A stretch of DNA of 64,000 nt from Halolamina sediminis (lineage in GTDB: Archaea; Halobacteriota; Halobacteria; Halobacteriales; Haloferacaceae): the NCBI RefSeq assembly GCF_001282785.1, contig NZ_CVUA01000001.1, positions 124,001-188,000 of the forward strand, read 5' to 3'. The notes under the pieces were generated by a model that saw only the letters and a program-made list of their open reading frames with translations, was not told the DNA's origin and searched no databases. A program made the translations under genes and the position numbers. Numbering within the stretch: position 1 is the stretch's first letter; each line of letters starts with the position of its first letter. Of this stretch, positions 45,653-47,254 are shown one piece after another.

Positions 45653-46531
45653 TCACGCGGCTCCGTCGGGCTCGCCCGCCGGGTCCGCGTCGGCCTCGGT
45701 GACGTACGCCTCCAGCTCGTCGCCCGTCACCTCGAGCCCCTGCCGCGAGAAGAAGGCGGCGACGTTCTCACAGTCGCGTTCGAGGAACTCCCCCGAGTTC
45801 GGGTGGTGGACGGTGACGGCCTGCCCCATGTCGATGATCACCAGTTCGCCCTCGTGGACGATCATGTTGTACTCCGAGAGGTCGCCGTGGACGAGGCCGG
45901 CGCTGTAGAGCCGGCGCATGTACTCCCGCACCACCTCGTAGGCCTGCTGGGGGTTCTCCACGTCGACCTCTGCCAGCCGCGGGGCGCGGCGCTCGTCGGC
46001 CTGCCCGACCAGCTCCATCACGAGCACGTTCCGCTGGACGGCGATCGGTTCGGGCACGCGAACGCCGGCCTTCTCGGCGCGCTTGAGGTTCGCGAACTCC
46101 TTGCGGGTCCACGCCAGCACCGTCGCCTTCTTGTTGTCCTCCAGCCCCTCGAACCGCGGGTCGCCCTCGAGGTACTCCCGCATCTGGCGGAAGTCCGAGG
46201 CGTTGATCCGGTAGATCTTGACCGCCACGTCGCCCGCCTCCCCCCGGGCCTCGTAGACGTTGGCCTCCTTCCCCGTCGACAGCGGGCCGCCGAAGGCGCC
46301 GACGTGGCCGTCCTGCACTAGCTTGTACAGCGCGCCCAGCGTGGCGTCGTCGAAGGCGCCCTGCTCGACTTTGAGGCGTTCGACGTTCTTCAGCCGCTTC
46401 CGGAACTCGTCGAACTCCCGGTCCTGGCGTCGGGCGGTGCTGTCCGCTTCGGTGTCGGCGAGCTCGATCTCCTCGAACTCGTCGCCGGGCTCCGCCATCT
46501 CCTCGTCGACGAAGCCGTAGTCCTCGCTCAT
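45653..46531 (-). CDS. rio1: RIO1 family serine kinase
   Basis: A 292-aa RIO1 kinase for small-subunit ribosome maturation. Seen are GGPLSTGKEANVYEA (flexible loop), VAVKIYRI (ATP lysine), LVHGDLSEYNMI (catalytic Asp) and VIIDMGQAV. The N-terminal 45 residues and C-terminal 20 are acidic tails. A CTTTTACGC box on the minus strand, 25-35 bases upstream, can serve as its own promoter, separate from eIF1A. Confidence 0.95.
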   Translation of the reverse strand: MSEDYGFVDEEMAEPGDEFEEIELADTEADSTARRQDREFDEFRKRLKNVERLKVEQGAFDDATLGALYKLVQDGHVGAFGGPLSTGKEANVYEARGEAGDVAVKIYRINASDFRQMREYLEGDPRFEGLEDNKKATVLAWTRKEFANLKRAEKAGVRVPEPIAVQRNVLVMELVGQADERRAPRLAEVDVENPQQAYEVVREYMRRLYSAGLVHGDLSEYNMIVHEGELVIIDMGQAVTVHHPNSGEFLERDCENVAAFFSRQGLEVTGDELEAYVTEADADPAGEPDGAA

Positions 46532-46584
46532 TCACTCGAGGTTGGGCGCCGCGGCGTAAAAGGGTGGTCCGAGCCGATCGCGTT

Positions 46585-46770
46585 GACGAGAGCCGCAGGC
46601 TCTCGTCTGCCAACCAGAAACCTCCGATTTCTGGTGACGTGGACGAGCGGCGCTCGTCCGCCAGCCAGAACGCGGCGCGTTCTGGCGACGTTGTCAGAAG
46701 CGGAGCTTCTGACTGCCAGTCGGACGTAGTCCGACGACGGCGCGCGACCTGTCGCCGGCTCCGTCCGGCG
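46585..46770. repeat. Tandem hairpin array with alternating linkers
   Basis: Six hairpins follow one another in the 283-base gap between eIF1A and rio1: H1 GACGAGAGCC/GGCTCTCGTC (46585-46607), H2 ACCAGAAA/TTTCTGGT (46613-46635), H3 GGACGAGCG/CGCTCGTCC (46641-46659), H4 GCCAGAACGCG/CGCGTTCTGGC (46664-46686), H5 GTCAGAAGC/GCTTCTGAC (46693-46713) and H6 GTCGGAC/GTCCGAC (46719-46735). All stems are perfect. Linkers alternate TGCCA, GACGT, GCCA, GACGTT, TGCCA, GACGG, so the repeat unit is two hairpins (about 51-56 bases). A weaker seventh, CGCCGG/CCGGCG, is at 46753-46770. The function is unknown. Confidence 0.8.
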
Positions 46771-46814
46771 GTCAACGAGCCCATGCCGTGATCGTGCACA
46801 CCGCTCTCGGCGAT

Positions 46815-47111
46815 TCAGACGTCCGTTTCCGTGACGTACCCGCCCTCGCGGAGCTGTTCGGCCTCGCGGTTCTCGTAACGGTGCTCGATGTCGGCTTTCT
46901 CGTCCTGCCAGTCCCACGGGCTCACGAGCACGAGGTCGTCCTCACGGATCCAGTCGCGCTTGCGCATCCGGCCGGGGATGCGGGCGGTGCGTTCTTCCCC
47001 GTCGGCACACCGGACGGTCACCCGATTCGCGCCGAGCATCTCGACTACCTCGGCGAACAGCTCGTCGTCCTCGGGGGCCCGGATCCCCTCGGGGAGGTCG
47101 TCGTTGCTCAT
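46815..47111 (-). CDS. eif1A: Translation initiation factor eIF1A
   Basis: A 98-aa OB-fold protein: [53 protein letters not shown]. It binds the A site of the small subunit during initiation. The ATG at 47111 is preferred; a GTG two codons upstream is in frame. It heads the eIF1A-rio1-KH gene order on the minus strand. Confidence 0.96.
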
Positions 47112-47254
47112 CAGCACCGGCTTGGACGGTGGGGTGGTTAAGCGCTGTGGGATTTCGGACGGCCGAGCTATCGAACGGCGATCGCTCGTGCTCCCACTTT
47201 CTCACGAAACGTGGGACCGCCGGCGTTTTCACCGCACCCCGCACACTCCCGACC

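Follow-up and report, generated by a model that had tools for sequence, protein, structure and literature searches.

An array of six stem-loops lying in a row between the minus-strand genes rio1 and eIF1A of Halolamina sediminis is very probably a tandem cluster of a dispersed miniature haloarchaeal insertion element, namely a head-to-head doublet of CGTC-tagged REP-like palindromes joined by NGCCA. The identity of the doublets as a dispersed, inserted family was well supported, and an inserted element was indicated by clean insertion at CG-containing sites in dapA and uvrC and by an insert in dapF. Mobility was deduced from the comparison of genomes; transposition itself was not seen directly.

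Structure of the array

In the window (the whole analyzed stretch of 64,000 nucleotides), positions 46581 to 46739 consisted of a two-hairpin unit, CGTY-(hairpin A)-NGCCA-(hairpin B)-GACG, repeated head to tail to give three tandem copies, with a CG in common between adjacent units (Table 1). Across the six hairpins, the linkers followed in the order TGCCA, GACGT, CGCCA, GACGTT, TGCCA, and GACG. The folding energy of the array was -126.3 kcal/mol (z = -6.14 vs. dinucleotide shuffles), which was equaled by none of 200 shuffles. The six-hairpin array described in the original prediction, in which GCCA linkers alternate with GACG(T) linkers, was thus confirmed by sequence and folding. Its statement that all six hairpins were perfect held for five of them (stems of 10, 8, 10, 9, and 7 bp), while the second formed 8 bp and contained one C.A mismatch if drawn longer. 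Unit 3 belonged to a short-stem subfamily, resembling the intragenic 47-nt copies described below. An Rfam search of the array gave no family matches. The array was neither a CRISPR nor an integron attC, as originally stated, since identical repeats with unique spacers and attC core sites were absent from the sequence.

A second array was identified elsewhere in the same genome (G000:C1:2255827-2256009, locus L038), with 89% identity over 150 bp to the array of the window, which suggests that whole arrays are copied too. The palindromic repeat of another family that is listed in Table 1 had the pattern CACGGCGCGYGACC-(variable hairpin)-ACGGAGCCnATGCCGTG, in which the inner stem was swapped per copy and tandem copies were spaced by approximately 70 bp.

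Table 1. Components of the array and neighboring features (window coordinates).
Feature	Position	Strand	Length (nt)	Description
rio1 kinase gene	45653..46531	-		Downstream neighbor of array
Unit 1	46581..46639	+	59	CGTT start, GACG end; covariance model 83.2 bits
Unit 1, hairpin A	46585..46607			10 bp
Unit 1, linker	46608..46612			TGCCA
Unit 1, hairpin B	46613..46635			8 bp
Unit 2	46638..46690	+	53	CG in common with unit 1; covariance model 59 bits
Unit 2, hairpin A				GGACGAGC/GCTCGTCC
Unit 2, linker				CGCCA
Unit 2, hairpin B				GCCAGAACGC/GCGTTCTGGC; GACG end
Unit 3	46689..46739	+	51	CG in common with unit 2; 36.6 and 28.1 bits
Unit 3, hairpin A				GTCAGAAGC/GCTTCTGAC
Unit 3, linker				TGCCA
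Unit 3, hairpin B				GTCGGAC/GTCCGAC; GACG end
Second palindromic repeat family, one copy	46737..46790	+		Unrelated to doublet
Second family, outer stem	46737..46741 / 46785..46789			ACGGC / GCCGT
Second family, inner variable hairpin	46753..46758 / 46765..46770			CGCCGG / CCGGCG
eIF1A gene	46815..47117	-		Upstream neighbor of array, same strand as rio1; orthologues found

Copy number and covariation

When a 231-bp segment was compared with its own genome by BLAST, 40 places were found, mostly spanning exactly hairpin 1, the linker, and hairpin 2. Alignment of 18 own-genome matches yielded a unit of 57–59 nt, composed of CGTY, hairpin A (10 bp), NGCCA, hairpin B (10 bp), and GACG. Approximately 50 distinct units were present in the genome according to the covariance model, which often matches one copy on both strands, so that raw match counts exceed true copy counts.

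In the alignment of 18 sequences, which was built without fitting to structure, 98.1% of cells were paired and 46 double-sided changes were found, with nine pairs showing such changes; the observed covariation score was reached in 0 of 500 shuffles. An alignment fitted to the model, with 90 distinct sequences drawn from the own window, two copy-rich congeners, and other genera, showed 229 stem cells changed on both sides vs. 11 changed on one side. Stem changes were therefore almost all two-sided, and perfect DNA palindromes are maintained. G-U intermediates were rare in this alignment, which fits a DNA palindrome better than an RNA stem. These data agreed with the earlier proposals that structure, not sequence, is kept and that palindromes are added as modules.

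The units were 47–59 bp long. Among 113 units, the right tag was GACG (CGTC when read from the opposite strand) in 105, and the left tag was CGTT in 63 and CGTC in 42. NGCCA directly followed hairpin A in nearly all units; seen from hairpin B, this linker reads TGGCN. Stems were 7–10 bp long and loops usually 3 nt, hairpin A beginning with G-C and hairpin B with A-T. Many intergenic copies (L008, L010, L012, L080, L090, and others) were embedded in a longer composite repeat, gtggacgcctcgcggc ... gccgcggggggaggggtgggga.

The eIF1A-rio1 gap in congeners

The same gap measured 68 and 78 bp in two congeners (G001 and G004, respectively) and contained no hairpin array. In three others (G002, G003, and G005), it was occupied by copies of the second palindromic family in tandem, and in G006 by this family together with doublet-like hairpins. 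The variation of repeats in this gap by presence and absence speaks against the array having been conserved as an RNA or for its structure, and the array is most likely a tolerated insertion without conserved function. The originally suggested RNA or chromosome-structure role tied to this place was not supported, given the two array-free gaps and the many units elsewhere in the genome. The original prediction had also named as contrary evidence relatives lacking hairpins in this gap combined with the lack of other copies, or translation as a real protein repeat: relatives without the array do exist, but so do numerous other copies, and some copies elsewhere are translated in real proteins.

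Copies inside genes and empty sites

A 57-bp insert corresponding to 19 residues was found in DapA (peptide VAENQRFSAANQ) of the own genome (G000) and G003, while the otherwise aligned site was empty in G001, G004, G005, and G006. UvrC of the own genome (peptide VAERSSAASQ) contained a 45-bp insert of 15 residues, and the site was empty in the three congeners aligned (G004, G005, and G006). In both genes, the insert length equaled the unit length minus 2, indicating that a CG was common to unit and target; no unambiguous target duplication beyond this CG was detected at the empty sites. DapF of the own genome had an insert of approximately 51 bases (approximately 17 residues) that was absent in G003, G004, G005, and G006, and a different, possibly eroded, insert was present at the same place in G001.

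Further intragenic copies were identified in two S9 peptidases, an MFS transporter, a histidine kinase, a glyoxalase-like protein (assigned by sequence inspection), and TnpB; the empty-site comparison covered DapA, UvrC, and DapF. Frame-keeping lengths were observed in 11 of 11 intragenic copies vs. 71 of 102 other copies (Fisher p = 0.033), the intragenic set having been obtained by loosening a strict coding-score cut-off that gave 4. All eleven had a single orientation and a single reading frame, although opposite-strand frames were open equally often. The retained frame and the uniform orientation fit selection for a polar loop. In addition, doublets terminated dnaK (L059, 1443-1508) and a Hef-like nuclease gene (L077, 1495-1553), supplying the stop codon.

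In the histidine kinase (L071, 1544-1591), a 47-nt copy was located in the N-box (NAVEHG-STGNQTQSGD-AVEHG), with the target nearly duplicated at the flank. In TnpB of two genomes (L072, 1515-1571; L312, 1204-1251), in-frame hairpin inserts were positioned just ahead of the RuvC-I motif (GVD). TnpB copies of G010, probably Haloquadratum, were in the opposite reading orientation by inspection. Several tnpB C-termini in L056 and L317-L321, also probably Haloquadratum, carried doublets at one site in the opposite orientation, and these may overlap published SMR-A insertions.

Flank complementarity of at least 8 was found at 11 of 113 loci vs. 7.0 in shuffles. Flanking palindromes as a general target of the doublets were therefore unsupported by this test, though single IS605 cases look so. 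Similarity of the flanks to the 5' end of the element was 6.1 of 12 vs. 5.3 of 12 in shuffles, and right flanks resembled that end in several genes, a weak indication that an element arm duplicates the target.

Distribution among genomes

Units were abundant within the genus and scattered through the family and order. Two congeners gave 86 and 67 covariance-model matches with both strands counted, corresponding to about as many units as in the own genome. Outside the order, the covariance model found no units in the genomes sampled from the phylum. When 84,980 genomes were scanned with a strict pattern, 52 stretches were detected, all with haloarchaeal titles except one from an unclassified euryarchaeal MAG; the haloarchaeal ones came from Halolamina, Halorubrum, Haloferax, Halogeometricum, Haladaptatus, and Natrinema, among others. 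A plasmid of Haloferax mediterranei matched across 110 bp of the array. The viral contigs searched contained no match.

Association with IS200/IS605 genes

Doublets were located approximately 100 bp upstream of tnpA in G034, G016, G020, and G026, and in G033 they flanked tnpA on either side and also occurred within tnpB; doublets abutting tnpA were seen among these five genomes as well. The same sequence, ATACAGCG, adjoined the doublets near tnpA of G034, G020, and G016. G026 had no more than two strong doublets, and neither was farther than 1.3 kb from the two tnpA genes of that genome. Overall, five genera had doublets within or adjacent to IS605 genes, and doublets were found at ordinary loci too. 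The proximity of doublets to tnpA was judged to be far above chance, for a set of tnpA regions selected in part after a neighboring doublet had already been noticed.

Doublet copy number did not track the number of tnpA genes. Y1 transposases were not detected in some copy-rich genomes (for example, G011, G012, and G018), and in the own genome they were only broken or partial, which makes present-day activity there doubtful. Because doublets often occur next to IS200/IS605 tnpA genes, the leading candidate mobilizer was an HUH transposase supplied in trans, either TnpA of IS200/IS605 or a related enzyme; this is a plausible but tentative assignment, and the weakest step of the interpretation.

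Proposed mechanism and alternative explanations

According to the proposed mechanism, the unit would move as single-stranded DNA, the hairpins being recognized by an HUH transposase in trans. Since the motif used as an insertion site also forms the end of the unit, new copies would be added at the ends of old ones and arrays would arise. The stems would stay perfect since the DNA hairpin itself would be the recognized or copied form, and inside genes, the survivors would be only those copies adding a short polar in-frame loop.

Spread without any transposase, through replication template switching, slippage, or hairpin-templated gene conversion, would also keep palindromes perfect. The near absence of one-sided stem changes, the CG in common between tandem units, right flanks resembling the 5' end of the element in several genes, and the absence of intact Y1 transposases from the own genome are all consistent with it. 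However, the flank similarity was weak overall, and a transposition-like step is needed to explain single copies that are dispersed, with clean junctions, among unrelated genes and genera, so that this explanation is rather unlikely. The doublet could also be a terminal-only IS605-type relic, an ultra-short PATE in which left-end and right-end palindromes were fused after deletion of the core. A 52-bp terminal-only PATE of Haloquadratum, made by core deletion, may move (PMC3119063), and the size, the two palindromes, and the proximity to IS605 genes agree with such an origin. However, no IS605 copy was found to be flanked by hairpins A and B at opposite ends, and doublets near IS605 sit as insertions do, within its left-end region, within tnpB, or where tnpA meets tnpB; we regard the relic origin as unlikely.

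If the array acted as a structured RNA or as a transcription terminator between eIF1A and rio1, this would account for strong hairpins downstream of eIF1A on the same strand. Such a role was considered very improbable, as the terminator scan found no T-run pattern, and neither the hairpin-free gaps of two congeners, the missing Rfam match, the few G-U intermediates, nor the copies within coding regions fit such a function. A translated protein repeat, or palindromes arising by chance, can be practically dismissed: overlapping ORFs are present at the array and intragenic copies elsewhere are translated, but the flanks of the array in the gap do not code in a frame through it, and chance is excluded by dispersed covarying copies.

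Beyond the preferred reading of the array as clustered insertion elements, we more tentatively propose that haloarchaea may have their own class of ultra-short single-stranded DNA insertion elements with a putative mobilizer, whose palindromes would be kept perfect via hairpin-templated copying and which would repeatedly add in-frame loops to conserved proteins (DapA, DapF, UvrC, S9 peptidases, transporters, and TnpB).

The doublets extend REP/RPE-type palindromic doublets, hitherto described in bacteria, to an archaeal class, and they bring in-frame inserts in conserved genes together with clean empty sites in sister species. They also explain odd insertions of 15–19 residues in haloarchaeal proteins. 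Two long-standing questions thereby become testable in genetically tractable archaea: which agent mobilizes CGTC-type REPs that lack a transposase, and whether selection or the copying mechanism preserves their hairpins.

Comparison with known systems

REP-like sequences have been reported in archaea generally, in a source that does not mention haloarchaea (PMC12306157). No earlier description of haloarchaeal REPs was found in the open-access literature, a scope that leaves out most subscription papers.

The original prediction held that no known element is so organized, but REP doublets and BIMEs show alternating linkers between oppositely oriented palindromes. Inverted-palindrome doublets, tandem mosaics with alternating linkers, and supposed HUH-mediated single-stranded DNA transposition are features in common with the REP/BIME/REPIN group, and BIME-type mosaics explain the alternating linkers of the array. 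Unlike these GTAG-tagged, RAYT-mobilized elements, none of the 113 units had a GTAG tag, and no doublet-flanked RAYT gene was demonstrated. The doublets also differed from MITEs, which have transposon terminal inverted repeats and a target duplication, in that their ends were only CGTY/GACG and no duplication beyond CG was seen at the empty sites.

SMR-A elements of Haloquadratum are approximately 110 bp long, carry inverted terminal repeats, and have IS605/PATE palindromes as their main insertion sites (PMC3119063). Like SMR-A and PATEs, the doublets are haloarchaeal, transposase-free, and without clear target duplication, and they enter IS605-type transposons (PMC3119063); compared by description rather than by sequence, they differ from SMR-A in being only 47–59 bp and in also entering many ordinary loci. 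As in Rickettsia palindromic elements of the RPE-1 type, palindromes were inserted in frame in genes for conserved proteins, but the haloarchaeal doublets are smaller, archaeal, and composed of two fixed hairpins.

The CGTC/GACG ends, which also speak against the lack of a known counterpart, match the CGTC-tagged REPs of bacteria. These comprise CGTC-1 to CGTC-4, including Neisseria dRS3 and Rickettsia RPE-4/RPE-6 (Di Nocera, 2013; PMC3733652), are known from five bacterial phyla, and are said to have no dedicated transposase (PMC3733652). They are defined by an unpaired tag CGTC (or TGTC/CCTC), a stem of 8–9 bp starting with A/T pairs, a loop of 4–5 nt, and a short unpaired CCA-type tail (PMC3733652). 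The haloarchaeal palindromes likewise had an unpaired CGTC tag at one end, in full in hairpin B and as CGTY in hairpin A, and possibly a CCA-type tail at the other. Further common features were the occurrence mostly as head-to-head dimers with tags outward (a pairing built into the model-found units, as the model requires both hairpins), many dispersed copies, complementary variants of the stems, and intragenic copies in frame, some of them in DNA-repair genes; no transposase dedicated to them was found. In contrast, the two partners of the haloarchaeal doublet differ from each other, with one 5-nt linker in common, hairpin A has no A/T-rich stem start, the left tag is more often CGTT than CGTC, and loops of 3 nt and stems of up to 10 bp fall outside the definition. 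Because stem start and loop length differ, the doublet is probably best regarded as a variant working like CGTC-tagged REPs rather than as a proven member of this group, and the likeness may have arisen by convergence.
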